Below the pieces are notes generated by a model. That model saw nothing but the letters and a program-made list of their open reading frames with translations. It was not told where the DNA came from and did no database searches. The position numbers and the translations under genes were made by a program. From Physcia stellaris (lineage: Eukaryota > Ascomycota > Lecanoromycetes > Caliciales > Physciaceae), in assembly GCA_018902385.1 (NCBI GenBank), contig JABSSW010000016.1:62001-126000 (forward strand): a stretch of DNA of 64,000 nucleotides, written 5' to 3'. Positions 5,489-64,000 of the stretch are shown in pieces (within the stretch, counting starts at the first letter, position 1; each line of letters opens with the position of its first letter).

Positions 5489-6822
5489 ATGTCTCAAACA
5501 ACGCCAGTCAAGCCACCGGGCGTGTTCCCTGCTCCGCCAGGTGTGACACCAAACTACACAAATCCCGAATTGCGCACCGTTGGTCTCGTTCCTTTGATAG
5601 GCATCTTTACATTTCTATCCACCGTCTGCCTAGTGCTTCGACTGTACACAAAGGCCCGGATCATAAGGATATTTGGGTGGGAAGATGTAGCTGTCACCGT
5701 TGGTTGGATGTGCACTGTAGCCGGGATGGGGTTATTCCTCGCAGGACTGCGTGTGGGCACCGATGCGCACTTGTGGGATATGAGAATTGATCAATTCGAT
5801 CGCTATAACAAGGTATGACGCTCTGCATTCTCGCAATTAAACCTCAGGACTAAGTAAACAACATACTGACTTCCCGAAAGATAACAGTTGCCTTAATCCT
5901 ACTCAACGTACCCTCAGCATCGCTCCCAAAAGTCGCCATCCTGATGTTCTACCTCCGCCTCAACCCCACAAAGAGCTTTCGCTACAGCACGATCGCAGTC
6001 CTCCTAATAACATGGGGCTACCTCATCTCCCTCGAATTCGCACAAATCTTCGGCTGTTCGCCCCCCCAGAAATTCTGGAAACCCTTAATAGACGGCAAAT
6101 GCATCGACCGCAACCCCATCTACCTCGCCATCCCCATCATCAACGTCATCATCGACGTCCTCGTCCTCCTTCTCCCAATACCGATGCTAGTCAAACTCCA
6201 AGTCCCGCGACGAACTAAACTCGCACTCGGTGCGCTGTTCGCCGTATCCAGCTGCACCGTCGTCGTGAGCGCTTTGCGCGTCTGGGCTATCACCCGTGTA
6301 CTGAATGGAACGGACTTCACCTGGGACGCCGCGCCGAGCGACTCCATCCAGGTCGTCGAGCTGAACATGACGGTCGTGTGCGCCTCCGTGATGGCGCTCC
6401 GGCCCTTCTGCCGCCGCCATCTCCCATTTCTGCTCGGAGGAGGGAATACAGGCGATGGAACCCCTGGCGCGAGCAAGACCCTCAACTTCGACGGCCCCTC
6501 AGGACCGAAGTCGAAAAGCAGTTACCGCACCAAGGTCAGTGGCGGCGACGCGTCGAAAATGGGCAAGCGAACTTTTTGGACGAGCCTCGGTAGCACGCTT
6601 GGTAAGGAAGATGAGGAAGACATGGAGAGTTTGAGTACTGAGCTCAAGAATGTTCCGCCCCAGGTGCGAGAGGAGAGAAACGGGTCCACTCGGCATACGC
6701 TTAATTTAGATCCAGAGGCGGTGGGCGTTGCGCGTTCAGATATGCAAGACCCGTATATGAGGTCCAGAGAAGGGGATCTGGAGAATGGAATCGTGAAAAC
6801 GATCTCGTTGGATATACGATAG
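5489..6822 (+). CDS. Fungal rhodopsin-domain integral membrane protein (PTH11-like), 421 aa
   Basis: Two exons, 5489-5812 and 5881-6822, joined by a 68-bp intron (GTATGA donor, CTGAC branch, AG at 5880); the join keeps frame and gives 421 residues. The protein has about seven hydrophobic segments and features of the fungal rhodopsin-like family: R(L)YTKARI followed by FGWEDV after the first helix, GTDAHLWDM before the third, FGCSPPQKFWKP, and a conserved AIPIINVIIDVLVLLLPIP helix. The last 130 or so residues are a polar, probably cytosolic tail rich in Ser, Lys and acidic residues. Relatives include PTH11-type receptors, but most have no assigned ligand and this one lacks an obvious CFEM domain. 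It converges on the RING-like gene. Confidence 0.85.
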
Positions 6823-28412: not shown

Positions 28413-31400
28413 TCAACCATTTGAAGTCGAGTTGAGACGGACACGTGATGTATCCGCCCGAGTGGACAGCTTGCTGGAGCGCGCAGAAGCGGGAGTAACG
28501 ACGCTCCTTCCTGGTGGAAGAGGAAACATATCTTCGGCTTTGGCTTTTTGGAGTCTGGAACCGCGGCACAGTTGTCGTCCGCGGGTGGGGTGCTCGCTAG
28601 GGGGCGAGGAAGGGCTGTTGGTCGGAGGGGTGGTGGTAGAGGTTGAAGATGGGGGAGGCTGTTGTTGCAGTGGTTTTTGCTCAGACCTTCGAACCCCGTG
28701 CCGTAGCTGTGTACCAGAGAAGTATGCAGGCGCAGGTTCAGATAGAGCCGCCATCGCAGGATCAGTTCTCATCGATACCGCCGGTTTCGCGGTGGGGAAG
28801 GTAGATCCGGGGACGGGCCAGGCAGATGAGAAGGGTGATAAAGCGTGGGAGCCTTCGCGGAGTGGCCATGGTGCATTGCTGGAGGGATTCGTAATGACTA
28901 CTCCGATGGTACGACTGTGCCTCGCGGGTGTCTCGGTTCGGGTTGGCTTTGCCGTTGGGGTGTCCTGGGAGCCTGACTGCGACGAGCCGCTGCGCTTGAG
29001 AGGAGGGAAGGACGAGCCGCTGCGCTTGGGAGGAGGGAACGACGAGCTGATGCGGTCAAGTGGAGCGAACGACGAACCGCTGCGCTCGAGGGGAGGGAAA
29101 TAGGACCCCTGAGGACGTCCAGTGGATGGCGTTTGACGAAGCCACGATCTAGGGTGAGATCGAGTGAGTGGTGATGGAGTGCTTAGGTTTGATATTGGTT
29201 CGGGGGTCGTGTACAGTCGCGGAGAAGAACTGGCCGCAAAGTCAAGAACTTGTACGCCTTCCGTCAGAGAATCAACTAGGACGTCCGTTTGCGTAGTCCT
29301 CAGTGCGGAGTCGAGAGTTGTTCCTACGGCTGTGATGCTATAATGTCGTGGCCGATTCTCGGTGGTCCCATCATCCTCGTCTGAGTCAGCGGTCGGTTTG
29401 GTCTCGTTCTCTTCCAGCTTCAACACGATCGCCACGGCGTTTTCATCTTCAACCACCTTCGCGTGGCGCTTGGCAAAATACTTTGCGTACTTGTAGATGC
29501 TGTAGTAGCATGATGCAATGTTGACAAATGTAAGGATGAGCTTGTAGGGCATGTAGTATAACAGGCAAACGACGGAGACCATTTCGCCGCGAGAGCGCAA
29601 ATGAACGTAGTTGAAAATGACAACGTTTAGAAAGTATAGTGCCAGTGTGGCGGCGAAGAGATAGGCAGAAAAGATCGGTCTGACGATGAAGGAGATGGGA
29701 AGGACAAAAGGTGCAAGGAGGTACAGGAGTGTTTCGTACACTTCTTGAAATACGAAGATTTTGGCGCCAATCTCCCACCAACCTAGCCGCCAGTTCTTCA
29801 AAATGTAGGCCATGTCATAATACATACCGTTGACGAAGAAAAAGTTCCATCGGAAGAATCGTTGTTTCCATATGGTCATCTCACCGAAACCGCCCCGAGC
29901 GCCACCGTTACTGTAGAAAATAGCGCTTGGCGTTTCCGTTTCCACAAAGCAAGAGGTGCACATCTGGATTCGACAGCCGAGCTGCCGTGCGACGTGTCCA
30001 AAAAACCAGTCCTCACTAACAGAGAAACCCGGGTGCTCCTGAAAAGTTTTTAAAAGCAATTCCCGATCCCAGATGCTGATAGCGCCGTGCGGGAAGGTGG
30101 CACTACCAAGTTTGCCAGCAAAAGCTCGCTGGATACCTGATAGCTTATACTCAACGTCTTGTGCTTGCTGGCATAGCGTTCCTTTACTTCTATTTGGCCC
30201 CACGCTCTTGATTGTGTAGCCGATACATTGTACCTTGCCACGAAGGCGTTCCGTGACAAGTGGGAAATTTGGGGGAAGAAGACAGTCATCATCGATGAGT
30301 AGGACGTAGGGGAATCTTTTGGCCACGTAGGTTCCGACAAATTGCGCAATGATTTTCGATCCCAGAGGCGACCATGTATGTGAGACACCATATTCCTCGC
30401 ATACAGACGCTGTATTGTCTAAGGGTGTTGGCGAGTTGCCGTTTGCTATTACCTGTCCTTTCATTAGCTCGCTTTATCTACATCGTCCGGGTTGACAAGA
30501 CATACAAAGATATTTTCGGGTGGGAAGATCTTTAAAGCAGCTTCCAGAGTACTGGCAATGAGGTTTTCTGACTTGTAGCATGGAATTAAGAGTGCGGTAT
30601 CATTTTTCCGACTCGTACCCCGTTGAGGCACCCCGGGGTGTGGAGGGAACATCGGTCGCTGAGGGACCATGGGGGCTGGTTTTTCGAATGATATCAGCAG
30701 GGGTAAGTAGGCATACCTAGTTCAGATTAGATATAGTATCCAAATCCGTGAGGACGGGAAAACGTACAGGAAACCAATTCCAAGGAAAACTGCAGTTCCG
30801 GCTGGAACCACAAGATAGCGCATAAAGACAATGTAAATATACCAGACTACACCATCCCAGAGTGGCCTCCCCACAAACACAAAATATATGACTGCAGCGA
30901 TAAGGAGGTAAAAGAAGTACTCAAAAGCATATTGGGCCACTGGCGATCTCTTGATTTTGACCTGGCGAACCTTGGCCTTTTCGTACATCTCCGCGACCGA
31001 GGATTTGCGGCCGGGATGCAGGACTGCAGCTACGGCATTCTGTACACCGTCGACAGTTCTGTCTACCGCATTTTGTACAGCGTCGACAGTATTGTCTACC
31101 AGAACACTAGCACGCCGCGCAAAGCTTCGTGTAGAGAAGCGACTTTGGTTTGAGTTGTCTCTTGCCATCGGTGGTCGTGACTGGGTCTCAGGTGGTTCAC
31201 CGTCCAAAGCGTCTCCCTCGGCGAATTGGACCGGTTCCTGCTCCTGTGGTCCATCCGCCCTGGAAAAAGCGAAATTGTTGAGACTTTGAAACACGTAGGT
31301 GTTTTCGAGGTCAGACCCCTCCAAGACCTTCAAGGGTTGAGAGTTTTGGACGGGCTGAAAGCGTTGTATAGGTTGAAAGCGTTGTATGGGTCGCTCTGTC

Positions 31401-45762: not shown

Positions 45763-47329
45763 CAATGTTTGTTAGACATTATTCGAATCGATTCATATTA
45801 TTTTACAACGTTCAAACGTTGATTTCATGCATCGATCGAAAAATTTCTGATGAATTAAACGACAATCAAATTCGAAAACATCAAGTTGAATTCACAACGA
45901 ATTTATCGTCATTTAGTGTCGTCAGTAGAATGTATATTGTTTATTTTAACGATCGTCATTTAATTTTTCAAAAATTCAAAAAATTAACATCGACGTCGAT
46001 CGATGAAAACGTCATTTATCGTTCAAGCGAACGTCAAATCCGAACGCACGATCGATCATTCGATTTCGATGAAAACGTTTTCAAAAACACGAAATTTCAC
46101 ATACACGATTCGATAACTCAATGAACTCGTCATTGTTTCGAATCGATGTTTCGAATTATTTGTTACGAAATGAAAAAAAAAACAAATACGACATGAAATT
46201 CACACGTTTTACACGATTTCACGAATCACATACGTTTTATTTTTTTTTATTTTTTTCATTTATACGATTCAAATTTTCAGACTCAAACATCACAATGATT
46301 ACGTCAAACATCATTCACAGTTTTGTCGTTTTCATCTCAAAGTCAAAACAGTATTTCAATTGAGAAATCGACGTCAAAAACGATTTTCGAATCAATCACG
46401 TTGAATGAACAATCAATTTATCAATAAAATCAATGTTTATCGTCGAGTCTTTACACGACAAAAATATCGATTGAAATTTCATCGATGCAAAAACGAAAAT
46501 CAAATTCACGAATTTCATCATCGTCGTCGAGAAACACGAACGAAATTTAAATAAAATTTTTTTTTATTTGTTCAATGCAATGAACGTCAATCATCGTTTT
46601 TTTATCATTGTCATAACGAATTCAACATCATTGATTTATTGAACAAAAATAGCAAAACGTTTCAAAAAAAATATTTTCGTTTTTCTCGTCGATATCATTT
46701 TCGATTTCATTGATCGATTTGTCATTTTAACGAACGTCGAATTTTACATCAAAATCGTCGAATCATTACACAATCAATTGATCATCGAAAAAACTGATTC
46801 GAAATTTATTGTCGACGTATTTTGTCAAAATATTTTGCTGTTCAAAATGCACAAATTAATTCATTTCAATTATTTCGTGACTCGTCAACGTGACGAGTGA
46901 ATTTTCGAAAACACAAATCTCATCGAAATCGAAATTTTTTTTTTGAATTTCGTTAAAATTATCATCGATACGATAACAAAATCAAATTCAATTGCACTGA
47001 TCGTTGATCGTTTCGAAAAATCTAAACGTATTCGTTTCAATATATCAAGATTTGAATACATCGATTTTTTTTGCATCAATCAAAAATGCATAGACAACGA
47101 TTTCATCAAACATGATTTTGAAAAATGTTACTATAATCACTCAAAAAGCGCTTTCAAGAAATAAATTGACAAAAACATGTTTGATCATTCATACGGCAAA
47201 ATTCTGAAAAAAATTCAAAACTCACAATAACAATCAACGTCGTTGATTGAATTTTGAAAACAAATTCTGTTCATTAATCATTCAATCAACGATATGTTGT
47301 GATACACAAACTCGAACGTCAACATTTAC

Positions 47330-50300
47330 GTGTGCAAAAATCGAAATCTCATACATTTTTTCATGTTTCACATCGAGCATGTTGTAATTGCAGACAAAGC
47401 TCGCTTCACTGTTGAAAAAAAAAAAATAATCAAATTACTGTTCGTTTTTTTTTACAACAATGCAAATGATCAATTCATTGATTTGTCAATTTTTTACATG
47501 TCAAACTCGTCAGCAAATTTGCTGTCAATATCAACATTCGAAAAACAAAACGTTTATTGAAACATTGAAAATCACATTTTCAAACATCAAAACAAGTCAA
47601 TCGAATATGCTTTTTTGCAAAACAACGAATTATACGTTTTGAAATTGCAATCACATCAAATGATTGCATTGTCAACAACATTATTATTATCGTTCATCGT
47701 ATGACATCGAAATCTGAATCACACATGAGTTTTTTTTTATTACGTCAATATTTAAAGAAATTGAATCACTTTTATCAAAACGATTGCAAAAATAATCATT
47801 GCGATATTTGCAAACTAATCAAAGCAAAAAAAAAAATCGAATAGAAAAAAATATTCATCATGTCGAAAAAACGTTTCATATTATTCACATTGATTTAATA
47901 TCAATAACGATCGAAAACTTTGAAAATGAACGTTATTACATCAATATTATCGATGACAAATCACGCTGAACGAAAATATACATCGTCAAAAACAAACACG
48001 AATGATTACAATGTTTTATCAAATACATCAATTGAATCAAACGTCAATTCGATATTGACGTCAAAATCGTACGTACAAATTATGACAGCGAATTTCGCAA
48101 CACGCAATCAATCAATTATTTTGACAATCAAAACATTGAATTCAATTCAATTTCAACAAATGCTCAAAACGTCAATGATGTAATCGAAACACATCAACGC
48201 ATTTTCATCATCATGATCAAAACAACGTTATTGACGAAAAACATATCGAATTTTTTGTGATCAAACATCACACATGCAATGACGTATATCAAGAATCGAC
48301 GCTCAATTTCGTATTTGAAAAATCAATCATCGTTCGAAAATATTTACGAACAATTTTCGAAATTGACGAACATGTATTCATTCGAATCAATCGTTTACGT
48401 CGTCATCAACAAAAAAATCAAAAATCATTTTAAATCGAACGTCGAAAAAAAAATTTTCATCGAATATGACGATGACATCATTTATCGAATTTACATATCG
48501 ATTAATCAGAAAATCGAACGCGTCAAAAATTTCGATATTTATGATCACAAATCAACATCAAAAATTGACATCGAATTCGATGAGAATTTTATCGAATCAA
48601 TTGTTGATTCAACAATGATGAATTTTTCTGTTATTCACATTGAATTCATTGCAAAAAAACAAGAAATTCAATCTCAAATTTTTCAAAACATTGAAACTCG
48701 ATCACATATCAAAATCAAATTTTCAAATATCATCATACAAAAATCAGTGACGTCACAACAACAAAAAAATTTTCAAAAAATTTCACAAAAATACGTTACA
48801 ATGCGTTCAAACAGAAAAACAATTCGAATAAATTTTTTTATGAATTTTATCGTTTACAATGTCATAACTTCTGTCAGTTTCACGATGTTTCACTTAGCAA
48901 TGCGTGAGTTGCTCGCAAATTAAAACTCAAACTCAAATGATTTAATTGCTTTGTTCGACAGCATTGCTGATTCTCAGTCAATTTCAATTACAGACGCTGA
49001 GTCTGATACGATCAATCTCGTCTCACTGTTGATCGATTACGTCGAAAACATCGACGTTTTCTCGCTTGAAAAATTCATAACAATGCTGACGATTGACGAA
49101 AAAAAATCAAATAATTACAACGACGTCGCACGAAATTTCCATTTCTCACAATGACTAAAAGCAATGAGAAAAGAACTCGACTCTCTATTGAAAAATCACA
49201 TTTGAAATCTAGTAGATTTTACGCTCGATGAAAGAAAGTCGCTGAACGATAAATGAATTTACAAACTCAAACGCAATGTCGATGACGTTGTGATACGATA
49301 CAAAACTAAATAATGCGTTAAAGATTTTTTATAACAATACGACATTGATTTTGATCAAATTTTTGTTTTCGTCGTCAAATCAATGATTTTCCGAATTTTA
49401 TTCGTCGTTGTCGTTTTTCTGAATTTGAAAATTGAACAAATGAACGTGAAAATTGCGTTTCTATACGAATTCATTGATTCAAATATTTACGTTAAGTATT
49501 CGATTGAATGTGACAATGACAAAATTATTTGCAAACTGAACAAAACATTGTATGATTTGAAACAATCACTCAAATTCTGATATAAACGTCTGTTCGAATT
49601 TCTTTTACAAAAATTAATTTTCAATTTTTTCGACGCGAATCAGAGCATATTCGTCACGAATGTTGATTTCAAGAATTTTATTATTATTACATGAGTCGAT
49701 GATATCAAAATCATTGTTTTCAATAAAATCATGTTTAACAGAACAAAAACAGAACTCAATAACGTTTTCGACATGATTGATCTTGAATCAATAAATTTTT
49801 ATTTTGATATGATCATTTTCAAAAATCGCGAAATGCACATAATTCGTTTTAATCAAAAGACATATATTCAACGCGTCGTTAAAAAATTCGATTTACAAAA
49901 TGCGAAGTCAATTCGAACATTCATGAAAAAATCATTTGATTCAATTTTCAACGTTAATCAAATCATCGATCAAAATATCAAACAATATCAAACAATGATA
50001 ACTCAATCATGTTTGCAATGATAAAAATCAAATCAAATGTAACGAATGCGATTTTCATAATTAATCGATTTGCTCAAAATTTCAGTTCTAGTCATATCAA
50101 GACAGTCAAGCGTGTTATAATTTATCTCAATTTCACGATCGATCTTTGCATAGTTTACGACGATAATTTCAACAAAAAATTAGACATCGAAACATATTGC
50201 GATGCAAACTGAGCTCGTGACAAAATTTCCAAAAAATTCATCGAAACATATCTGTTTCTATTAAACGACGATTCGATAAATTGAATGTCAAAACTTCAAT

Positions 50301-50570
50301 TCATCGTGATCACGTTTATTTGCGTCGTCGAATATATGATCATATCATTCGTCGTCAAAAAAATTATCTGACTCAGACAATTGCTCGTTGATTTACGAAT
50401 TCAAAATCAATCGAACAATTACGTCAAAATATTGATAAATATTGACAGTCAGAACGTCAAAGCACTCAGTGAAAATTCAGTACATCATGATCGCATCAAG
50501 CACGTCGATATCGTATATCATTATGTAAAAACGAAATTAAAAAAAATTACATTGAATTCAAATATATAAC
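47330..50570 (+). pseudogene. Copia pol remnant (protease-integrase-RT-RNase H)
   Basis: A protease-side segment (47380-47560) has VIADKARFTVE and LLSISTFEKQ. Integrase (about 47880-48250) has HIDLI, YINIIDDKSR and NAQNVNDVIE, matching HTDL, 'FTDD.TRW' and 'PEQNGV.ER'. RT (49240-50020) has YKLKRNVDDVVIRYK, LNKTLYDLKQSLKF, VDDIKIIVF. RNase H (50150-50570) has YCDAN and SKLQ..., VVEYM. About seven conserved Trp codons are TGA (for example after LKQSLKF, before VDDIK, and after YCDAN) and one is TAA. No functional product. Confidence 0.88.
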
Positions 50571-50696
50571 GATCGACATCATGTCAGTCGACGATTTCAT
50601 CAAATTTTTATTTTCGTTCAAATATCAACGATTTATCGACATGTTCGAAATGAATTAAACATCATGATTTTATATCTTTGCAAATTCGAAAAAAAA

Positions 50697-50849
50697 TATT
50701 GAAATAAATTCATTATCAAAAACAATGTCAAGACATTATTCTATTATAAGCTAGCGTGCAAACTCTGTACAATAATTCACATTCATCACATGTACGATAG
50801 ATAGTATTATCATGAATATAAGCACGTTGCACTCTACATATCTGTAACA
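50697..50849 (+). repeat. Copia 3' LTR (153 bp)
   Basis: Begins TATT (mutated from TGTT) and ends CTGTAACA. It carries thirteen derived changes, all between 50698 and 50777; the outer 72 bp are clean. An A-rich purine run (CGAAAAAAAA) directly precedes it and is the likely mutated polypurine tract. Confidence 0.92.
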
Positions 50850-50854: not shown

Positions 50855-51103
50855 AGAACGAAAATCAAGTTGCGTCCTGAGTAGTAGATATTCGCCAAAC
50901 ACGAAGCGCTTGTCAGTCGGCTAATGGCAGCCATAATCCCACTCACAGCGGGATATTGTGGTCAGATCTAATTCTTTCTCAAAGCTAGCAATCATGCGAT
51001 ATCCTTGATTTACAGAAATGGACGAGTCTGGAGATCTGATCCAGCTCTCACTCTCAGTCAAGCTTGCTAGGTCGCTGGCAATCTGTCTTCGACAGGCAAC
51101 AAC

Positions 51104-52624
51104 ATGAGATTCCAGCCTCACCCTCTGGCCATCCAGGTCATTCAATCTTGTATGCTGGTAGTCCTCTGTGTGGAACTTCCTCCACCTGAGCCAAGACAGC
51201 CTACTTCAAACGATTTAGCCTCCTATGATCCACGAAAAAACATCACATGTCTTGGAGATGAATCCGTTATAGGCTGGAATATTGGACCGGCACGATATCA
51301 AGGTACATCTATGCAAAAGTTATGCGCTGATCCACAGTACGGTGGAGACAGCAGTGGGCCTAATCTCCGAGGTTACTGCCACGAAGGGGACGTGTTTTTC
51401 GGAAACAATATTGTGAGAAGTCCCTTTCAAGAAAACCGGTTTGCCAGCAATGTACAATTCAACCCCATGACGGCCGTGGACTTGGCTAGATCTCTCCGAA
51501 ATTACCTAGAATGTAGGAACCGATGTTTCTGCAACTACGGCCTCGAAGATCCCTCCCCACAACCTCGACACGTCGCTGAAACCCGCAAAACGTTCGATAA
51601 TCCTACGCAATCCATCGATTGGACCATCAGGCTAGATACGCAGGACAAGGCAGAAAAGGCGGTGTCAGCTGAACTGACAAGATTATACTTTTTCGATAAC
51701 TATTTCCTTCGCCCTGGCCTCGATACTTTTGCCTACCGACATGAAGACGTTGGCATCGACGTCTCAAATCGAATAACGTGCGACGGCCCCTTGCCTACCT
51801 TCGCACTCCCTGCCCCCTACGACATCCACAACTTCGCAGATAATCAAGCCCTCTGCGCCACACAGCTTTCAGGGGGAAGCCCGGCTGCTAATGCTGGTGC
51901 CTATTGTCATCAGAAACTATACCTCAATGGAGAACAACCAATAGTCAGTTTCGCGGACGATCAAACGCCTCGTCTAGACTGGACTTGGAACCCCGGATCC
52001 GGGGCTGCGTTCTTCAAAGCTGCGTCATTGCGTTTCCATTGCTGGAAGAATTGCGCTTGCTCGTTTCCTGGACGAGTGAAGAACTATGTCGATCCGACGC
52101 TGTGGATGTGGGAGTGGATGGTGGGGAACATGCCGAAGAATTCGATCTCGACGACGAAAGGGAGCAGATACCCGATGGGATCTTCCACGGATGAGAATGG
52201 CGTGATCTTGACAACGTACAAGGGGGGTAGCAGTAGGAACCAGCGATGCGCGGCCAATGCCGATAAGCAGGGCTGTGACATTCCGTGGCCGGTGGAGATT
52301 CTTGGTCCGGTGCCGAAAGTTGTGATGAGGGCAGCGGTCACACATCCTCAGGCCCCTACTATTGAAGCGGGGGAGACGAAAAAACTGTGTGGTAATAAGT
52401 GTTCTGGGATGGAAGATTGTGGTGAAGATTGCTTATGTAGGACGCCCTCGACAGAGGAGGCGAGAGCTTTGGGCGTTGATCCTATTGTGCCGGCAGCTTT
52501 GTGTCTGGGCTTGGCATCGGTGTTTGGGCGAGAGCTGGGCAGCCTGGAGGAGCAGGTTGATTGCCTCTGTAATGCAACATATATAGCGCGAGCATGCTGT
52601 CATTCCAAGGACGGCATGGTCTAG
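51104..52624 (+). CDS. Secreted cysteine-rich protein of unknown function, 506 aa
   Basis: Single exon, ATG 51104 to TAG. The N-terminus has a short hydrophobic stretch (VIQSCMLVVLCV) after a polar start, probably a signal peptide or anchor. About two dozen cysteines are spread through the protein, with two repeated-looking halves: each has a 'LCA.....G......G.YCH' segment (residues near 80-105 and 255-270) and a 'R..C....CFC/CACS' segment (near 145 and 310). The C-terminus is very Cys-rich (CGNKCSGMEDCGEDCLC and DCLCNATYIARACC). Such large Cys-rich single-exon proteins occur in many filamentous fungi, mostly uncharacterised. The copia element ends 254 bp upstream, so its promoter may be affected; the gene itself shows no sign of mutation. 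Confidence 0.8.
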   Translation: MRFQPHPLAIQVIQSCMLVVLCVELPPPEPRQPTSNDLASYDPRKNITCLGDESVIGWNIGPARYQGTSMQKLCADPQYGGDSSGPNLRGYCHEGDVFFGNNIVRSPFQENRFASNVQFNPMTAVDLARSLRNYLECRNRCFCNYGLEDPSPQPRHVAETRKTFDNPTQSIDWTIRLDTQDKAEKAVSAELTRLYFFDNYFLRPGLDTFAYRHEDVGIDVSNRITCDGPLPTFALPAPYDIHNFADNQALCATQLSGGSPAANAGAYCHQKLYLNGEQPIVSFADDQTPRLDWTWNPGSGAAFFKAASLRFHCWKNCACSFPGRVKNYVDPTLWMWEWMVGNMPKNSISTTKGSRYPMGSSTDENGVILTTYKGGSSRNQRCAANADKQGCDIPWPVEILGPVPKVVMRAAVTHPQAPTIEAGETKKLCGNKCSGMEDCGEDCLCRTPSTEEARALGVDPIVPAALCLGLASVFGRELGSLEEQVDCLCNATYIARACCHSKDGMV

Positions 52625-53257
52625 TCGCCATGGAGTTGCTTGGCTTCGCCCACCGGCCAGTTTCGCGGATGCCTTCACTGCTCACTCAGAAATCACCTAT
52701 AAAGCATTTCATAAACTTTCAGCATATGAGGGTCAAACTCTCCTTCGTGTCTACTTTCGAAGAGGACGTGGTGATAACATAGTGAACGGAGCCCGCGCAA
52801 AGAATGAATCCTTCTAGAGGAGCAAAAGAACGTTTCGTGTTCAATTGAGGTCATGAGAAGAAGGCTTGGTTGATTAATTCTAATTCATTAAGCATTCGGA
52901 CGGGCCTTGAATGGGGTCCGTGATGCGACTAAACACCAACGCAGCCAATCACTCCTAGGAGATTCTTGGCTCTATACAGACAAATTTACCCCTTGGTGTT
53001 CTGTTTAACTGTTCGAACAGGCCACTTCAAGCACCTTTACACCCATGGCCCTCACATGATTTGAACTAGCCGCCGGAGAAAAAGCGAAAATACGATAGCT
53101 CGACTTGAGAAAAACGATGAGTTTAAACTTCATTCATACCAATCTATACTTTTAACACTTAGGACGGATAACCTTAGTCTGACGAGTGATTCCTATGCTC
53201 TATCGGAACCACCAGCACTCAATATCTTCTGGGGCCGAGTAACGGCAAGCTCATCGC
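52625..53257. other. Transition from gene DNA to the right AT-rich block
   Basis: No gene seen. Normal CC/GG content persists to about 53330, within the first tandem repeat copy, and then drops. Confidence 0.5.
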
Positions 53258-53978
53258 TAATGCTGCGTACTTCCTTCATTGTTATGTACAAAATTCTTGG
53301 TGTTTTGGGCATGGCCGGCCTGTAAGCAATGATTTTGCAGAGCAAAGTGACTTTGCAAAATCGATTTCGCTGAACAAAGTGATTCAACAAAACAATTTTC
53401 AGAATTTAATTACTTTTTTTGTTTTTGCGACTGAATTACGAAACGAAAAACAAAAGTCTTCAAAAAAGATGAAAACGTCGAAAAAGTCAAAAACAAAAAG
53501 TGAATGAACGAGACAAAAAAAAAACGAAAAATGAAAAATGAAATAGATAAAACATTGATTTTCTATTTAATTAGAAAATCAATTTCTTCAAATTTCTTAT
53601 TAATGTTGCGTACTTTTTTTCATTGCTATGTACAAAAATCTTGATGTTTTGAACATGAGCGATTTGTAAACAATGATTTTGCAAAACAAAATGATTTTGC
53701 AAAGTCGATTTCGCTGAACAAAGTGATTCAACAAAACAATTTTCAAAATTTAATTATTTTTTTTGTCTTTGCGATTGAATTACGAAACGAAAAAACAAAA
53801 GTTTTCAAAAAAGATGAAAACGTCGAAAAAATCAAAAACAAGAAATGAATGAGCGAAACAAAAAAAAGACGAAAAATGAAAAATGAAATAAATGAAACAT
53901 TGATTTTCTATTTAATTAAAAAGTCAATTTTTTCAAGTTTTTTTCATTTCGTCATTTTTGCATTAACATTCATGTTTA
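53258..53978 (+). repeat. 343-bp tandem repeat, copies A and B
   Basis: Copy A begins at 53258 (TAATGCTGCGTAC) and copy B at 53601 (TAATGTTGCGTAC), a period of 343 bp. Copy A keeps CC and GG in its first 80 bp; copy B has lost almost all of them. Copy B is interrupted or ended by the gypsy element at 53979. A third, partial copy (C) lies beyond the gypsy at 61438. Confidence 0.8.
53974..53978. other. Target site duplication GTTTA (left)
   Basis: GTTTA directly before the gypsy 5' LTR, repeated at 61421-61425 after the 3' LTR. Confidence 0.8.
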
Positions 53979-54132
53979 TGTTACAAATCGACTTCTGTCT
54001 GATCTGAAGAATTTGCTTCTGTCTGATTTCATTGATTTGACTAGTCGACTTGACATTGACATTTATTCGAGTTTTTGTATTTAGCATTCGATCATTTTCT
54101 TACTATTTCATCAATGAATCAATGTCTTTACA
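53979..54132 (+). repeat. Gypsy 5' LTR (154 bp)
   Basis: Starts TGTTACA and ends TTTACA. Differs from the 3' LTR by 13 transitions and one single-base indel. Confidence 0.92.
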
Positions 54133-54134
54133 AT

Positions 54135-54142
54135 TGATAGCA
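54135..54142 (+). promoter_or_regulatory. Candidate gypsy primer binding site
   Basis: TGATAGCA two bases after the LTR resembles TGGTAGCG, the complement of the initiator-tRNA-Met 3' end, with two G-to-A changes. Plausible but short. Confidence 0.35.
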
Positions 54143-54423
54143 TCATTTTATCAATCAATCGTTATTATCGCATCAATTGATTGCGTAATAACATCAATCA
54201 AATCAGCTTTTGTAATTTACTTGCAAAAGCTTTTTGTTTTTTTTCAGTTCGTGTTACATCGATCGATTTCGTCAATTTATTTATCAAGCTTTTTTTTTTT
54301 TTTCATTGTATGAATATTTTATCTCAATTTCATCTTGATTCATCAACAACAAATTGTATTTGTTTTTTTGTGTGTTAGAAAATTTTTCACAATTCGTTCA
54401 AGCTGATTTTTATCAGCAATTTC

Positions 54424-56410
54424 GTGTCATCAATTCTCATTTCGAAAACACACGAATTTCATCGCTTTTTTCAAATTAAACATCGTGAAATCGAAAAATT
54501 TAACGAAGAGATCAAGCAAATCATAATTGCTATCGTCGTTTCGAATTTTTTTTTAGTCGTTTTGCATTCAGTTCTCGAAATACAGTCAGATCAGTTTTTT
54601 CGAAATCGATCGAATTTTTTGTCGAGTGAAATACGAATATCAATGTTTTTCGACGAATTGCTCGGAAATTTCGTGAGTATATTATTGTTTACAGAGTTTC
54701 AGTTATCTTTCGAAACTTTTTGAATTCACACATTACGAATTCAGTTTTCAGCAATTTCAATTCGTCGAACGATTCGTCAATTACAAAAGCTTTTTGAATT
54801 TCACGTCATCGTGACGCTTTGCTACAGTCGATTGTAAAGACAATCGAACGACGACGAGTATTTACGCTCAACTTTTCGTCAATTATCAATCAAGATCAGC
54901 GAAGTCGAAATCTATTTTTATTCGAGTCTATTCGATTCAACGATATCAATAGCAACTTTGCAAAGACATTTGATTCAAATTTAGCTGATACTCGAATCAT
55001 CTCAATTATTGAAGAGATCCCTCGTGACAACATGAGTCAGAATACGCAAATTGACAATTCAGTTCAGTCGTTTGCGTCTGATTTCAACGAAACTCAACGT
55101 CGTGAAATAGCGAAGATCGTTGTTGTCGCTTTAAAACATCGACGTCGTGATCGAAATGACGATGAAAATTCAAATTACAATTCGTCGAATTTCGACAACA
55201 ATTTTCAATTTTCAGCTGATCATAACAACAATGCTGACGAGTGAAAAGTGAAAAATGTTGACTTTTTCGATTCTGACTACGATGATGACATTGCTGTCAA
55301 CGTGAATAAATCAATAAAGTATTTCGACAAACACATTTATTATGTCGATGTTTATGTTTTCGTCGATCGTTTGAAAAATTTAATTTCGTTACGAGATGAA
55401 AACAAATTTCGTATTGTTTTGTCACAATGTTTTCGCGATTACGTTCAAAAGTAACATTTATTGATATTGTTTGAGCTGAAAAAGAATTTGTTGCGAATCG
55501 TTTCGTTAATCATTTGATATCAAATTTTAATCAAGTCATTCAAAAAGCGAACAATTCAAACATTACAAAATTTGCAACGAAAACGATATATCATGTCAAA
55601 CGTTAAACAGCAACGTAATTCTCGTATGTATGTTCAAAACATTTTTCGACATGTCAAAGTCGTTGAGTTCGAATCTGTTTTCAATCAATTTATTTTAATT
55701 TGATTTAATTTTGATTATAAATTTCGACGCGACATTTCAAAATCAAAGTCGAATATTACGATACGAACTTTTCTTGATCATTTGAAAAAGAAGTTCGACA
55801 TATGATTCGACATGATTAGCAAGCCCGTTTTTAGCTCGAAATTTAACAATAACAATCGTTTCAATAAGCAAAACAGACGTGATCGACAAAACGAATTTTC
55901 TCAATCGTCAAATGAATTTAACGCTTTTTTCTTTCAAGCTTATCGTTTTGCCGATTATTTCGTTTTCGTTCAACAAAAACAAGCTTATCAGAAACAATCG
56001 TTCGTTCAATCAAAACGTCGTCAAATCGTTTTGTCATTCGCAAAGCAATCACTGTTGTTAACGTCAAAAACGCGTTCGATTTCAAGAATCAGTCACGTCA
56101 ACAAAAAGAGAAATTTGACGATCGTGATGACAAAAATTTCAAACGTAAAATCTATGTTCTGAATGAATTTGAGAAAAAAAACGATCAAAAATCAATTGAG
56201 AAAAATTTTCTCATCGACGAAACTAGCGAGAATCAATCAACATATTATTTCGAAAATTTAGTTTATTATGATTTTGATCATTCTGACGACTTTGATCATG
56301 AATCGACAATTAATCATTTCATTTTGTCAATCGTCTTTATTTGTCGTCGTTGTACAAAGTTTTTCGTTTCAAACAACAAGTTTCATAATCACATTCGTAA
56401 TGTCGAATGC
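54424..56410 (+). pseudogene. Gypsy gag remnant with zinc finger
   Basis: Open pieces joined by stops, all plus strand. A middle segment (55240-55440) has VKNVDFFDSDYDDD and RLKNLISLRDENKFR, and 55700-55830 reads FDYKFRRDISKS then FDMI, both typical of fungal gypsy gag. Near 56340 a finger CRRCTKFFVSNNKFHNHI (C-x2-C-x11-H-x3-H form) is present. At least three TGA stops sit at family Trp positions. Confidence 0.7.
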
Positions 56411-56639
56411 TTTGATTTTAATGTTCGATTGAGAAAGTTTTTCTCAAATCAGCAATTGAATTTTTCTAGAGAAATCGAAATCGATGTTATCGATTCACAT
56501 GTCGTCATTACTTTTATTACTAAAATTATCAAGAGCTCATCTGAGTCAAATTTTAATCATGATTCAATATCGATTGTTTCGTCAAATGTTGATTTTTCAA
56601 AAAATATTGAAATTGACTGTGAATATCGTGACTGAAATT

Positions 56640-59600
56640 ACGCGAAAATTGACGTTGCTCTGTTCGAAAAAATTGAGTTAGAGTTCGTTTGCATTGATAT
56701 TGAATCAAAAGTCATTATTGCGAATCGTCGATTCTTTTTTCGTCAGAATTCTGATCTGCTTATTCGTATTATGACTACATTTTTCATTGTACGAGAGATA
56801 ATCATTGATCAACATCAAACTTCTGAGTACGTCATTGCTTCGATGTACTTTTTTGATCAAAAAAATGACAAAATCGTCAAAACTATGATTCGTCGCGAAA
56901 TTCATTTGATGAATAATTTCAAAATCAACATGCTCATCGACAATGATGTCATTGACTTTGAAAAGTGAAACATTGACAACGAGCATAGCAAAACTACGAT
57001 TGACAATTGCGACGTTATTATTTTTATTGACATTCGTCGTCGATTGTCAATTGATCAGTCGATGCACAAATCAATGCATATCAAAAAAACAATCATTGTT
57101 TCGTCGCAATCAAAAATGATCATTTCAATTCATTATTTTGTCGACAATATTTTTAATGATCGAAATTACTTTTTCGAATCAAATGAAACTGAATTTATTT
57201 TGTATGTTCATTTTATGAACATCTTTATCGAAGCTATTTTTGTTCGCAATGACGACAAACAAACTGTCAAAATTTCACGTAATTATCGCTTAAATTATTT
57301 CACTGAATTCGATTATTCAAACGCGTTTTTCGTCAACGACGATAACGCTGATTTGATCATGAAAACATCGCGCACTACTCACAAAATTTCGTGATTCAAA
57401 AAAATTATTGTCATTTTCGTCACGACGCTAGTCGCTATCACTGTCGTCGTTACGTCAGTTCAATTAATCATCATCGCTATTTCGTTGACGATACGCATCG
57501 AGTCGATTTCGTTTTTGATCAATGTTGACAACGTTAATTTGTCACAAGCTTTCATTTTATTTAGCGATTTGCGAAAGTTTTTCGATTTGCGAAAGTCTTT
57601 CGATTTGCGAAAGTTTTTCACAGATCAAATTTTCGACTTTTCAGAAAAATTAAAATTCTCGATTACGTTTATCATTTCATCGTCGAACATTGTGTTATTC
57701 AATGATGTCATTATTTATTTTTTCGACGAAGCGAAAGTTTTTCGCAATTTGATCGTTGAGTTTTCGATTTTGTGAACAGACAGCGAATTTGCTGACTTAT
57801 CGAAAAAAAATTGAATGAAAATATTTCTTAAAACAGACTGAAAGAATAAAATTCTTGAAAAAATTAAAATGTATCTTTTGAAAATTAAGAATTGTGCTTT
57901 TGTCGATAAAATTTTCGACGAATTACACGATTTAAATCGATTATTCTGAATCAACGAATTTATCTCATTCAGTTATTCAGTGTTTTGTGTTTGAAAGAAC
58001 GTTAATGAAAAGCGTAAAGATCGCGTTGTCGTAAATATTCGAAAATTTAATGTCATCATTCAATCGAATGTTTACTTTTTGTCGTTTCAAATGGAAATCA
58101 TTTCAGTCGTCAAGAATTGTTTCTATATTATTGTCGTGAATGCATTCGCTTTTTTTTATCAGTGACGAGTACATTCAGATGATCGACACAAATTCACTGT
58201 GATGAATTATCGAGATCAGAAATCATTCAACGTTGTCGTAATGAAATATAAGAATTCGTCTGTTTACGTGCAACGACAAATTGATCGATTATTTCGTGTT
58301 TATCGAAAATTTGTCAAAGCATACGTTGATGATATCGTCATTTTTTCACGAATTTGACAAAAACACGTTAGTCATTTGCGTCAGATATTTATCAAGTTGA
58401 TTAACGTTAATATATTCATCAAATTTATTAAAGCATTCATTGATTACTCGTCAATGCAATTATTGAATCAAAAAGTCGACTCGCTTGATTTATTCACTAG
58501 TGAGAAAAAATTGAAAATCATTGCTAAATTTCAGTTTTTTCGTACTTTTCGTCAGCTGAAAATCTATTTTGATTTTATTGATTGAATGAGAAAATACGTT
58601 TCATTTTACGTCGACGTGTCAAAATCTTTACAAAAAAATTATTTTGCTAAAGTTTGCTTTCAAAAAAGAAAGCGCTAAAAAGATTTTCGTTAATCGAATT
58701 AAAGTCGACAATGCAACGTCAAAAAACGAACTTCATACGAAATATTTCAATTTTTATTTTCGAAACTTTTTTATTTCATTCATCATGATTCGAAACGTCA
58801 AATTTATGTGAATTTGAATATCAGCAAAAAATTCGATATCGACGCTGTAATTTATCATGTTAAAAAAAAATTTATCAAGTCAGACGAATATTCAGTCAAA
58901 TCGTTTATTCAGTCAATAATGTTTTTGTTCAGATTATTGAATTCGATCGAAACTCGCTATTGATCGACTGAAATGAAAATCGCTGACATAATGTGAGTAT
59001 TGCGAAAGATTCGTCATTTCATCGAATTATTCATTTCGTTTATCGTTATTTACATTGATCATGACGTTGCGTTAGACATAGTCAAACAGATTATTTTTTC
59101 GTTTTCGTCGACAGATAAATTGAATTTTCGACTAATTCGTGTCAGCGATTATATTCAACGTTTCGATCTGAATATTCGTCATAAGTCAAACAAGTTTCAT
59201 TTTGTGTCGAATGTCTTGTTTAAACTCGTTAATTTCAACGATTCACAGACATCGTCGAAAAAAATTCGATGTTTTTTTCATTTTCGTCGACGTTGACACA
59301 AATCATTCAAATGCTGACGTATACTTTATTTGCTCGTTAATGAAAATGAATGATGTTTTTCGATTAAAAATTCTAAATGATTACAAAATCGATTTTAGTT
59401 GAAATCGAATTTTGAACGTCTTAAATATCGAGAACGACGTCAATTTTTCTTTTGAAAAAAAAAATCATGAGTTTATTTTTCGCGTTGATGACACTATTGA
59501 CGATCACGTTTTCGTTTTTCGTCGATTTTGTATATCGAATGCTGTCGTCAAAAATGTGTTGAAAATCGTTCATGACGACTCAAATGATCATTCAGAATAC

Positions 59601-60820
59601 GCAAAATGTTATGAGCAAATCGTTTCGACATGATATATTCGTGATCTGATTCGTCAATTACGCGATTATTTGAAATATTGTTCAAAGTGTCAAATTAATC
59701 GAATTAAACGTCATCAGTCACACGATTCGTTACAATTTATTTTGTTGTCAATCATTTTTTTTTTCACACGTTTAATTTAAATTTCATTTTTGCGTTGTCA
59801 ATATCACGCGTCGAACAATTCAACGTCGTTATGTCGATTACGTGCAAGTTCACGAAGCGAATTATCATTGTGTTAAACAAAAATATTTGAACAATCGTCG
59901 AATGAAATCGAATTTTATTGAATCAACTTGATTTCGACGATTGAAAATTATTTAAAATTTTGATATTTGATCGAGATCGAAAGTTCATGAAAAATTTTTG
60001 ACGAGAAATTTTCATTCGATTTGATGTAAAATTATTGTACAATACAATTTATCATTCACAAATCGATGAACAATCGAAAAAAATTAATCAAACAATTGAG
60101 ATTGTTTTCAAATTTTTCATTAGTGTGCTGAATAATCTCGCAGACTGAATTGAAATTATATTTGATATTCAACGAGATATTAACAATTCAATAGTCATCG
60201 TTATTGACAAAACGTCTAACGAGATTTCGTATGAATTTATTCTCACGCAAATTTTCGATTTGTTGAAATTTTTCGAAAAATCGTCGCTATCGTTATCGCA
60301 AATGACTCGATTAGAAATTGCAAATGTTTTGATTTTTGCACAAATGAATTTCAAGTTTTATTACGATCGCAAACATCAATCGATTAATTTCGTCGTCGAC
60401 GATTGAACACAAATTCGTTTTTACAAAAATTACGACATTTTTTCGATCGCAATGTTAAATAACAAATTTAATCAACAATACATTGTTTTTTTTTCGTGTC
60501 ACGAAAAAAATCGATAAATTAATTTATCGATTGAATATTTTCAAAAAATGAATTATTCATTCGATTTTTTTTATCGTTCAATTGAAATCATGTTTTGATT
60601 CAATTAAAATTTTTTTCGACGTCATCGTTTTATTCAATCGAATTTTGTTTTCGTCGAAAAAAACATTGATTTGATCAAATTTTTTGAATTGAAACGTATC
60701 ATCAACAAACGAATGATTGCTCGACGTGAAATCGAATATTTAATTAAATGAAAAAATTATGATTCAAAATATGATGTTTGAAAAAATCTATCGAAATTGA
60801 ACGATGTCATGAATTTGATA
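56640..60820 (+). pseudogene. Gypsy pol remnant (PR-RT-RNase H-IN-chromodomain)
   Basis: Retropepsin-like region about 56640-57150. RT about 57950-58600 with DRVVVNIRKFN, SVYVQRQIDRL and AYVDDIVIFSR (the YVDD motif). RNase H region with STEMKIAD and VIYIDHDVALDIV (about 58960-59240). Integrase with an HHCC region (HDDSNDHSEYAKCYEQ ... YCSKCQ), IFDRDRKFMKNF, and HSQIDEQSKKINQT (about 59540-60350). A chromodomain-like segment at 60690-60830 has REIEYLIK, KNYDSKYDV, KNLSKLND, each block followed by TGA where YLVRW.GY and W.NL are expected. I count about fifteen Trp-to-TGA positions here; none is TAG. Confidence 0.88.
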
Positions 60821-61265
60821 CAGAAATATGAAAATTCAATTCGTCACATGATCGATTTGTTTGATCGTCATCGTTTGTCGAAATCAATCATGCTGAGAAA
60901 GTTTTTCGCAAATCAAATTAAAGCAATTTTCGTTGACATCAAATTTATTATTAGAAAGTTTTTCGCGAACAAAACAAGTTTCGTCAACAACAAGATTACT
61001 ATTTCGTCATCGATTTTCGCTTTTCGATTTTTAGTCGTCGTGTCACGAAAGTTTTTTTCAATTATTTTGTCGACGTCGCAGATATCGCTAATTTTCTCGT
61101 TCGAAACGCTGATGTTACGTCGCTCGAGTCGATTAATTAAAGATTGAAAGATATTTGAAGAAAAGTTATTGCTAAAAAAAACGTATGACTAAAAGCTTAT
61201 TGAGACATGACTAGAATGATTAAAAGTTACGAAAACGTAACTGACTTTTCTTTATTGAGACAGAC

Positions 61266-61420
61266 TGTTACAGATCGATTTTTGTCTGATTTGAAAAATT
61301 TGCTTTTGTCTGATTTCATTGACTTGATTAGCCGACTTGACATTGACATTTATTCGAGCTTTTTGTATTTAGCATTCGATCATCTTCTTATTATTTCATC
61401 AATGAGTCAGTGTCTTTACA
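61266..61420 (+). repeat. Gypsy 3' LTR (155 bp)
   Basis: Starts TGTTACAG and ends TTTACA; one base longer than the 5' LTR. Mutations relative to it fall on both copies. Confidence 0.92.
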
Positions 61421-61425
61421 GTTTA
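61421..61425. other. Target site duplication GTTTA (right)
   Basis: Direct repeat of 53974-53978 right after the gypsy 3' LTR. Confidence 0.8.
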
Positions 61426-61437
61426 ATTTGAACGAAT

Positions 61438-61600
61438 TAATGTTGCGTACTTTTTTCATTGCTATGTACAAAATTCTTGATGTTTTGAACATGATCGATT
61501 TGAAATCGTGATTTTGCAAAACAAAATGATTTTGCAAAGTCGATTTCGTTGAACAAAATGATTCAACAAAACAACTTTCAAAATTTAATTATTTTTTCAC
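61438..61600 (+). repeat. 343-bp tandem repeat, partial copy C
   Basis: Begins TAATGTTGCGTAC as in copy B and follows it for about 160 bp to the AATTTAATTATTTTTT stretch, then diverges into the recombinase region. No CC or GG left. Confidence 0.75.
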
Positions 61601-62446
61601 AATTTCAAAACACGTCGAGAAACGACGTCGTCGTCAAAAAAACGAAAAAAAAACAATTCAGTCGTTTTGATAATGTCGCGATATTTGAAAAATGTATTTT
61701 CTGTTGTTTTCGATATACAACAAAAACGTTTCGAATTTTCATTTTTTAAAAATTTGATCAAATCGTCAAAAACGTTTGCATTGCGAATTTCAATTGTAAC
61801 GTTTCGACGAAAAAAATGATTTGAATAATGATTTTCGAATTTCAAATTCGTAATCGCGTTTTGTAATACGATGATAACGTAATTTGCATTGAAAAATTTT
61901 GATTGATCGATTTGAAATAAAAAAAAAACGTTGAAACAAAAAAACGTTCGAAAAATTGCGTAATGAAATTAACGCACAAACGACATCGTCAATGATCGCA
62001 ATGAATATCGAAATTTTTTTGCGAAATGAATCGATTTTCGAAAAAAAAACGTCAAAATGAAATGATCGTCGAAAAATCATCGAAAAACGAATAACGTTTC
62101 ATTTGTTGAATTCGAAAATACGATCAACATTTGATCAACTAAACTCATTAATACGCAGAAAATTTGCAAAAATCAAACAGAATGCGACGTGCAACGTTGC
62201 ATTTTTTTTGATGCGAATATCGAAAAATTGCAAAATATTTAGCAAAATATCACGAATAATAATTTTTTTTTCACGTTTTTCGTTTTTTTTATACATACGT
62301 TTGATTTTATCGATTTCGCGTTGCAACAAAAACTCGTTGAAAATATTGAAATTGAAATATTTTCGATTTACGCAAACAAAACGTAATGTCGTGATGTAAA
62401 TTTTAATAATTTTCGATTTAAATCGTTGTATATTCAACGAATTCAC
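61597..62446 (-). pseudogene. Tyrosine-recombinase (Crypton/phage-integrase-like) gene remnant
   Basis: Two minus-strand pieces in the same frame (62446-62135 and 62080-61790) and one in another frame (61845-61597) line up with the fungal tyrosine recombinase family. LHVAFCLIFANFLRINEFS, then a TGA at the conserved Trp, resembles 'LHAAFCLAFAGFLRI.EF.W'. FFSKIDSFRKKISIFI resembles 'PSSKTDPFRKGV'. DDVVCALISLRNF resembles 'DDACAVAALRNLF'. SNHFFRRNVTIE matches the HxxR box 'SGHSFRRGA'. The frame change and stops mean it is dead. Such genes belong to Cryptons and related DNA elements. Confidence 0.6.
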
Positions 62447-64000
62447 TCAATCGTCGATAACGAAAATGAAAAAAAAAATGTTTGAATGTCATCAAATGCG
62501 CAAAATTTCACGTATAATTTAATTGCGAAATTGTATATTTTGCGAATGTTCGAAATCAAATTTCATCACAAAAAACGTGTTGTCATTTTGTTCAACGAGA
62601 TTTGAACGTATCAGTATTCTGAAACATCGTCGTTGAATGCGAAATTTAATTCGCGAATTGATCATGACGAATTTGCAATTGTGAATATTCGTCAACGATT
62701 TTATCGTGTTTATTTCGCGAAAATAAATCAATCAAATGATTGAATTTCGAATTTAATCATTTCATTTCAACGATGATATCGTGAAAAACAAACAACATAA
62801 CGATGTTTCGAAACGACGTTATTGTCGAATCGTGTATCGTGTTTTTGATGAATTTAAAACAAACGATTTGATTATCGCAATGAATGATAATTTTGTTATT
62901 TTCGAAATGAAATAATTATTGACGCAAAATTTTCAACACGATTCGTATTTTTTTGATTTGAATATCGAACATGCGATTACGATAACGAATTGAATATCGT
63001 AAATTGAATTTTTCGAAAAATTCGTTTTGACGATTTCGAAATCAAAAACTTTTTATGTTTCAATTGTTTGAAACATTTGTTCAAATGTGATTCGAAAATC
63101 GAAACGAAATCGTTCGCAAAATTTTAACGTCGTTTCATTGAAATAAAAACGTTTGTCATCATTGCAAATTCAAACGCATTGTTTCAATAATTTTGCAAAA
63201 TTTGTTGACGTTTCGAATTCGATTTCGAGTGATGTAAAATGAAATGAAAAAAAAACGTCTCGAAACGACGATTCTCGTGCAAAAAAACAAAAAATTCACG
63301 AGAAAATCGATTTCGCGATACGTGAGAAATTTTTTAATGAAAATTTCGTTGACAAATTTCATTGTTCTCGTCAATTTTGTTGAAAAAAATTTGATTTTTA
63401 TAGTTTCGTTGTCGAATTCGATGTCAAAAAATTCGAGTTTTGTGTCAAATTTCTTTTTTTTCTCGTTTGTTTCGAGATTGAGATTTTGACAAACATGTTG
63501 TCATATTTTTTTGAATGATTTCGAATTCGTGAAAAATTTCATAATAATCAAAAAATCGTTTAAATAATGAAAAATTATGCGAAATTCGCAAATTTCGATC
63601 AAAATTCAATGCAACGTTTTAACAAATAAATCGAATAAAAAAAAAACAATACGTAAATCGAACGATAAAAACAATTTCATATAATACATTTTCATTCATT
63701 CGAAATCGAATAATCAACGATTTAAAAAATCATCGAAACGTGTTTGAATGCATTGACGAAATTTTTTTGAACATAACGACATTTCGTTTTTGAAATATGA
63801 ATATTGCAATGATTTCATCGAACGTGACGTATTTCAAAATTTTTGCATTTTCAATAATGTTTTCATGAATTGAGTCGTTTTTCGAATACGAAAAATCGTG
63901 AATACGTTTTCATTCGTCGTCATGTTTGAATATCAAATTTAGAAATGAGCAAATGTCGTGTGAAAAAAAAACATTTTTGATATTCGTTGAACAATTCGTT
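62447..64000. other. AT-rich continuation of the decayed element
   Basis: Probably the upstream part of the recombinase element. Short open pieces exist on both strands but none is recognisable. I saw no CC or GG dinucleotide from about 61441 to 64000. Confidence 0.5.

Follow-up and report, generated by a model that had tools for sequence, protein, structure and literature searches.

A main comparative study of repeat-induced point mutation (RIP) is that published by Clutterbuck in 2011. In Neurospora crassa and most Pezizomycotina, RIP is RID-dependent and directed at CpA; it leaves dense C-to-T changes on both strands of repeats and destroys transposons, in genomes that carry RID-like and DIM-2-like genes. 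The order of preference in N. crassa is CpA>CpT>CpG>CpC, and RIP in experimental crosses of Trichoderma reesei prefers CpA and CpG over CpT over CpC (PMC5496416), that is, species differ in context preference. We analyzed a window of 64,000 nucleotides (C16:62001-126000; positions without a contig name refer to this window) from the lichen fungus Physcia stellaris (Lecanoromycetes, Caliciales, Physciaceae), which holds a heavily mutated long terminal repeat (LTR) retrotransposon at 53979-61420. This genome shares with N. crassa the dense C-to-T changes on both strands of repeats, the destroyed transposons and the presence of RID-like and DIM-2-like genes, but differs in context: CpC is hit more than CpT, CpA and CpG stay near background, and the least preferred context of N. 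crassa is thus the most preferred one of P. stellaris. The difference from T. reesei is similar, as only CpC and CpT are targets here. Probably, P. stellaris repeats have been mutated by a RIP-type genome defence that targets C followed by a pyrimidine (CpY; CpC first, CpT second) and nearly spares C followed by a purine (CpR).

Mutation of CpT is known from other fungi, where it occurs beside CpA. In the RID-bearing species Botrytis cinerea, Sclerotinia sclerotiorum and Magnaporthe oryzae, transposons show C-to-T changes at CpT, as here, but alongside CpA, and CpC is absent from the main text of that study (Amselem et al., 2015, PMC4352252), whereas in P. stellaris CpC is the foremost target and CpA stays close to background. 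For control genomes capable of RIP, alignments of transposons also had CpT-to-TpT as the dominant change (van Wyk, 2021), and Monilinia shows CpC-to-TpT double changes beside CpA. In Anisogramma anomala (PMC10998396), where RIP affects CpA and CpT, CpT-to-TpT is likewise a dominant change, but TpA is 6.7x over-abundant in its repeats and depleted in those of P. stellaris. Basidiomycota such as Microbotryum (PMC4352252) likewise have context-specific C-to-T change in transposons, but of a CpG type, whereas P. stellaris keeps its CpG. Among lichen fungi, Endocarpon pusillum (PMC3897900) and Cladonia rangiformis (PMC12542154) resemble P. stellaris in having AT-rich or RIP-scored repeat compartments; the E. 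pusillum repeats, with a TpA/ApT ratio of 1.47 and a substrate index of 0.70, are of the CpA type, unlike those of P. stellaris, and the mutated DNA of C. rangiformis peaks at ~16% GC, compared with 23-32% in 20 P. stellaris loci. A screen of 1,239 fungal species reports a CpA preference common to RIP-like defences; the 130 species in which it saw strong and recent signatures belong to four classes, Lecanoromycetes not among them (Badet and Croll, 2025). We found no description of RIP for Physcia in the accessible text of the P. stellaris genome paper, and none of a RIP that spares both CpA and CpG in the literature searched, which did not extend to subscription papers, so that priority is not proved. 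The original prediction for this locus, made from the DNA letters of the window, had proposed an undescribed feature: CpT mutation as such was already known, and what is new in comparison with the accessible literature is the sparing of CpA and CpG and the lead of CpC.

The genome searched comprised 43.97 Mb in 147 contigs, a part or another version of the published P. stellaris genome (46.57 Mb, 184 scaffolds, N50 594.86 kb). Software alignment of the 5' LTR (154 bp, 53979-54132, plus strand) with the 3' LTR (155 bp, 61266-61420, plus strand) gave 13 transitions, a single 1-base gap and no transversions. Twelve transitions are at CpT and one at CpC, none at CpA or CpG; these counts and both LTR lengths agree exactly with those predicted by eye. 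Many CpA and CpG sites had also been said to be unchanged, and the C sites identical in both LTRs (both strands) are indeed 24 CpA, 8 CpG, 9 CpT and no CpC. With random placement, the probability that 13 of 13 changes fall on the 22 CpY among 54 C sites is p = 4.5e-7. Which context is preferred cannot be read from the LTR pair alone: once saturated, a context disappears from a comparison of copies, and CpC is rare among the LTR differences because CpC sites are already consumed. Over the whole element, the observed/expected ratios (o/e) are 0.02 for CpC, 0.51 for CpT, 1.18 for CpA and 2.68 for CpG.

The internal part (54133-61265, plus strand) was delimited as a heavily mutated LTR retrotransposon by composition and frames, and its longest stop-free frame among those listed (237 codons, 55922-56632) lacks proline (P), glycine (G) and tryptophan (W). 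No domain match was found in the interior of this copy, so the label Gypsy given to it earlier finds no confirmation by a domain within the window. Elsewhere in the genome, chromodomain matches (G000:C23:205071-205220 and C33:10720-10869) lie ~420-440 bases upstream of LTRs of the same family, a position that we take to fit a Ty3/Gypsy chromodomain element.

This LTR has 12 matches in the genome, counting the two in the window. Five LTR pairs of the family (in the window and on contigs C4, C6, C23 and C63) together show transitions at 64 CpT, 1 CpC, 4 CpA and 1 CpG, with 5 further transitions that have no common 3' neighbour and 5 transversions. Pairwise comparison of nine element pieces pointed in the same direction (5472 CpT, 160 CpC, 1304 CpA, 692 CpG and 765 unassigned transitions, 860 transversions), in counts that include common history repeatedly and come in part from pieces with nested elements.

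The evidence that carries the context rule comes from polarised comparisons, in which a GC-normal copy served as the reference for an AT-rich copy and changes at A/T sites as background. In the first pair of transposon copies (L033, G000:C5:1164500-1169500, versus L020, C33:4000-12000; 5002 columns), C-to-T changes were found at 652/684 CpC, 511/627 CpT, 46/668 CpA and 28/646 CpG sites, and changes at 76/2371 A/T sites. A second GC-normal copy (L034, G000:C12:58300-63300) gave nearly identical fractions as the reference, and diverges from L033 by ~4% without context bias. In the second pair, DNA transposon copies L037 and L041 (1971 columns, the sole polarised alignment among eight loci of that family), the corresponding numbers were 187/202 CpC, 168/246 CpT, 15/245 CpA, 15/242 CpG and 38/1021 A/T sites. 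In these two long pairs, CpY was thus changed at 79-89%, CpR at about 6% and A/T sites at 3-4%, with a CpY hazard 38x and 25x that of CpR. CpC is the stronger target (95% and 93% changed) compared with CpT (82% and 68%), a correction to the original prediction, whose CpY preference stands.

Grouped by the bases on both sides of the C, the same two pairs gave 779/898 changes for RCY, 739/861 for YCY, 43/772 for RCR and 61/1029 for YCR. As RCY is similar to YCY and RCR to YCR, the base 3' of the C decides and the 5' base has no effect; the change runs from C to T, on both strands. A third, shorter comparison of L033 with the more diverged copy L005 (720 columns) gave 88/92 CpC, 75/85 CpT and 8/91 CpG. 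Some CpA changes above background occur in more diverged copies (L017, G000:C63:157600-166000, and L005 compared with L033), which perhaps reflect a weak secondary context or age.

The window has a polarity reference of its own. A 344-bp tandem duplication next to the 5' LTR consists of a less mutated copy (53275-53598, plus strand) and a more mutated copy (53619-53943, plus strand), and alignment of the two showed C-to-T changes at 6/7 CpC, 17/23 CpT, 0/42 CpA and 0/19 CpG sites. Next to the 3' LTR lies part of a third copy (61438-61597, plus strand), which gave 8/8 CpC, 11/14 CpT, 0/27 CpA and 0/8 CpG against 53258-53418. The duplication is itself mutated, though it adjoins a mutated element. 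Its outer copy, at the border of the mutated block (53275-53943), is the less mutated one, which indicates that mutation fades across the border.

For composition, the window and 17 loci were divided into 500-bp bins, 142 of them below 36% GC, 258 with at least 42% and 14 between; L001-L012, L019, L021 and L022 were excluded for being short or overlapping. As 7 of the 17 loci were picked for carrying this LTR, the low-GC bins form a non-random sample; the o/e in these bins was 0.03 for CpC, 0.37 for CpT, 1.22 for CpA, 3.01 for CpG and 0.41 for TpA, compared with 0.94, 1.07, 1.10, 0.88 and 0.72, respectively, in the normal-GC bins. RIP of the CpA type raises TpA, whereas TpA falls here. The signature was present in 20 of 20 AT-rich loci on 19 contigs, hand-picked for spread from 150 reverse-transcriptase matches and all stop-bearing, with o/e of 0.00-0.11 for CpC (rounding to 0.00 in 17 loci), 0.00-0.50 for CpT, 0.98-1.47 for CpA, 2.28-5.52 for CpG and 0.32-0.58 for TpA. 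Conversion reaches completeness in some 2-kb stretches: L051, L053 and L059 (2001 bp each) contain no CC/GG and no CT/AG, with 240, 214 and 171 CA/TG and 147, 139 and 140 CG, respectively.

Stop codons give a further view of the same rule. A CpY change yields a stop solely by turning TGG into TGA, because CAA, CAG and CGA become stops only through mutation at CpA or CpG, and TAG arises from TGG only through mutation at CpA. Among the 150 reverse-transcriptase matches scored (of 527 candidates), 140 have stops, namely 250 TGA, 33 TAA and 3 TAG, and 112 of the 140 have TGA alone; 10 DDE_1 matches contain 44 TGA, 3 TAA and no TAG. This TGA excess is due to CpC change within TGG. A nuclear code with TGA for tryptophan was considered and rejected, as GC-normal matches have long stop-free frames. 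The predicted preference for CpY instead of CpA is thereby borne out by two polarised transposon families, the tandem repeat of the window, all 20 loci and the stops of two domain families, and the CpA dominance in other families that had been named as speaking against it was not seen in the families tested, the alignments covering a subset of the genome's repeats.

The mutated DNA is repeated where this was tested, and two single-copy stretches tested are unmutated, as expected for RIP, on few loci. The window alternates between AT-rich blocks and other DNA. One block lies at the window start (1-1900; o/e CpC 0.18, CpT 0.46, CpA 1.25, CpG 2.49), another with the same signature at 46000-50800 (0.02, 0.34, 1.39 and 2.65), and a third, which contains the element, at 53600-64000 (0.02, 0.42, 1.20 and 2.90); no strand is assigned to them or to the island of normal CpY density at 50900-53300, which is unmutated between two mutated blocks. 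CpY density shifts over ~300 bp near 50.7-50.9 and 53.3-53.5 kb. For part of the second block (47500-49500), the search of the genome scored 40 matches (of 65 candidates, self included), 35 of them at 91-95% identity and many partial. The unmutated open reading frame (ORF) of the island (51104-52624) is nearly single-copy, its other matches being 68% over 381 bp and 84% over 56 bp, and a DNA search with L035, a GC-normal reverse-transcriptase locus, gave no second copy. Also as in RIP, C-to-T change is dense and transversions stay at background.

Of the other explanations, slow decay retains most weight, although we consider it unlikely. Heterochromatin would here be methylated by a CpY-preferring DIM-2-like enzyme, with spontaneous deamination over long times; P. 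stellaris does have a DIM-2-like gene (L010), and a table in a 2026 review lists DIM-2 with "all CpN contexts, CpT preference". However, avoidance of CpA and CpG is no part of the described activity of DIM-2, and four of the five LTR pairs have 63 transitions without a single transversion. In the two long pairs, moreover, the CpY hazard is 67x and 41x that of A/T sites, a background that includes the older divergence seen between L033 and L034, and this favors a mutational burst over slow deamination.

C-to-T change with few transversions could also come from a cytosine deaminase of the APOBEC/AID type that attacks repeats on single strands. Enzymes of this family have a 5'-neighbour preference, whereas the 5' base makes no difference here, and we regard such an enzyme as very improbable. 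No APOBEC_N match was found in the genome, a result of little weight since control genomes had no match either.

Three explanations can be dismissed as close to negligible. If ordinary CpA-type RIP had exhausted CpA, a CpT signal could arise as a saturation effect, and the RIPCAL authors did see more CpT than CpA change between Tad1 copies of a single Neurospora strain; composition and polarised counts together remove this doubt, since CpA and CpG are abundant, TpA is depleted and CpC is the context consumed, and the polarised CpA losses of 46/668 and 15/245 refute it. Ultraviolet (UV) damage on the exposed lichen thallus has in its favor that CpC and CpT are dipyrimidines, but UV affects all dipyrimidine cytosines, TpC included, whereas YpCpR is at background, RpCpY is mutated as much as YpCpY and adjoining single-copy DNA is unmutated; the missing effect of the 5' base excludes it. 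An assembly or sequencing artefact of a single genome could be suspected because the assembly is Nanopore-based, but Illumina coverage of 30x is also reported, mutated and unmutated blocks alternate along one contig, and frames on other public contigs (see below), some of which could be from the same species, lack P, G and W yet contain histidine (H), glutamine (Q) and arginine (R). Separately, CpG methylation and deamination of the Masc1/Masc2 type (methylation induced premeiotically, MIP) was rejected, as CpG was changed at only 28/646 and 15/242 sites and has an o/e of 3.01.

The original prediction had also proposed a search for host genes of the RID/Masc1 and DIM-2-like types, and two RID-like genes and one DIM-2-like gene for C5-methyltransferases are present. 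A DNA_methylase profile search of the genome gave four matches in three genes. RID1 (C5:499307; 932 aa in a P. stellaris record) has SPPCQ and EQT motifs. RID2 (C6:791557; L009, G000:C6:790057-794028, 850-2055 and following exons) has EET for EQT and is readable to its end via two putative short introns. The DIM-2-like gene (C3:340323; L010) has an ENV motif and a long N-terminal part. We take EQT to mark the RID/Masc1 class, and ENV to be the usual form. The best solved match of the DIM-2-like gene, over 680 residues with 604 bits, is 9bap (chain of 1456 aa, named DNA (cytosine-5-)-methyltransferase), presumably Neurospora DIM-2; DNMT1 chains reached at most 123 bits. For RID1 and RID2, the match to solved methyltransferases is confined to the catalytic part, NCBIfam gave the general DNA (cytosine-5-)-methyltransferase superfamily and one very weak subfamily match, and no entry under the name RID turned up in NCBIfam or among solved structures.

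RID1 and RID2 fall in separate sets of a quick tree with 79 methyltransferase sequences (8 of 87 were dropped for a missing PCQ motif), whose deep joins are unsure owing to long branches. The RID2 set has 27 other EET sequences, one of them from a Heterodermia metagenome-assembled genome, and is joined further out, with 87% support, by four more, among them proteins of the Eurotiales Aspergillus candidus and Talaromyces islandicus. EET occurs once within the RID1 set, in Pseudocyphellaria aurata. RID1 and RID2 are about equally likely to be the acting enzyme, and the DIM-2-like protein is less so. Under the proposed RIP-type defence, repeats would be recognized in the sexual phase, as in RIP, and would then be methylated or deaminated by a RID-type enzyme, with the CpY rule arising from an altered target-recognition part of one of the three methyltransferases.

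Several observations weigh against a RIP-type defence with a strict CpY rule. The GC-normal repeats L033 and L034 (~5 kb, 96% identical) escaped CpY mutation, so the process may be incomplete, recently inactive, or dependent on higher identity; and repeat targeting fits the data with few loci to carry it. CpA is less well spared in the comparison of L033 with L005 (25/98, versus 24/342 at A/T sites), and the divergent LTR pair on C63 has 3 CpA changes, contributing 3 of the 4 CpA, the single CpG and all 5 transversions to the five-pair total. TAA or TAG makes up 36 of the 286 stops in reverse-transcriptase matches, which means that CpA change is low but not nil. The name RID-like for RID1 and RID2 is taken from motifs, the timing and mechanism of CpY mutation are what we infer from sequence, and the DNA-level evidence is from P. 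stellaris alone.

Frames with the corresponding composition are also present in public protein sets. A CpY-mutated 264-aa frame used as a query matched 256 proteins, of which 120 were listed; being open frames, they are selected against Q-to-stop changes. Among those listed, P, G and W together make up <2% in 108 proteins, 2-8% in 11 and more in 1, and the 108 have on average 3.5% Q, 2.9% H and 5.0% R. The 31 closest listed proteins (63-86% identity) were compared with the codons of the GC-normal copy. Proline was kept at 0/396 positions, and the 149 CCR codons correspond to 95 serine, 39 phenylalanine (which needs a third base that differs from the reference) and 14 leucine residues. H was kept at 103/139 positions (7 became tyrosine), CGN-coded R at 255/304 and Q at 190/253. 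These residue changes, seen at the protein level, fit CpY change. The 72 more distant listed matches were less clear, with P changed to serine, phenylalanine or leucine and H kept at 165/326. Several of the proteins low in P, G and W keep a few W, which may stem from gene callers reading TGA as tryptophan.

Such frames thus exist on other contigs, without any implication for their frequency, and some of them may be from P. stellaris. More distant reverse-transcriptase frames (P0245-P0317, mostly ~40-57% identity), many from jgi/ncbi contigs and some on contigs >400 kb, also contain few P, G and W. From these, one or several other fungi may share a similar context preference. DNA of relatives was sought in viral contigs, where 62 and 5 pattern matches were obtained, none confirmed.

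Other ORFs of the window had matches to a fungal rhodopsin domain (5944-6822, plus strand), HET (heterokaryon incompatibility; 11659-13245, minus strand) and glycosyltransferase family 2 (28413-30464, minus strand).

Indices for CpA-type RIP look for a raised TpA/ApT ratio and a lowered (CpA+TpG)/(ApC+GpT) ratio. In 34 low-GC intervals of 1 kb in the window, the mean product, substrate and composite indices were 0.42, 1.34 and -0.93, compared with 0.72, 1.25 and -0.53 in 87 gene-rich intervals. With the usual thresholds, these CpA-based indices scored none of the 34 low-GC and none of the 87 normal intervals as RIP-positive, and the low-GC intervals lay further from the thresholds. CpA is not the preferred target in P. 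stellaris, and the process is best read as one that resembles RIP but lacks the CpA preference that normally serves to recognize it. Standard RIP indices assume CpA, and genomes of a CpY type would therefore be missed. As CpY change would make stops solely from TGG, frames between tryptophan codons should stay open, and open mutated frames, which are present, can find their way into protein sets, where they appear as unusual proteins lacking P, G and W.

The CpA rule of the 2025 screen has a clear counter-example in the P. stellaris genome. Since specificity is near all-or-none, the base that follows the target C can serve as a trait for mapping onto RID-type sequences. We tentatively suggest, as a possibility we hold with less than even confidence, that a lichen-fungus lineage runs RIP with a CpY code that nearly reverses the Neurospora order, that the switch is due to one RID-like enzyme, perhaps the EET paralogue, and that such a defence, scored as "no RIP", may be more widespread than known.

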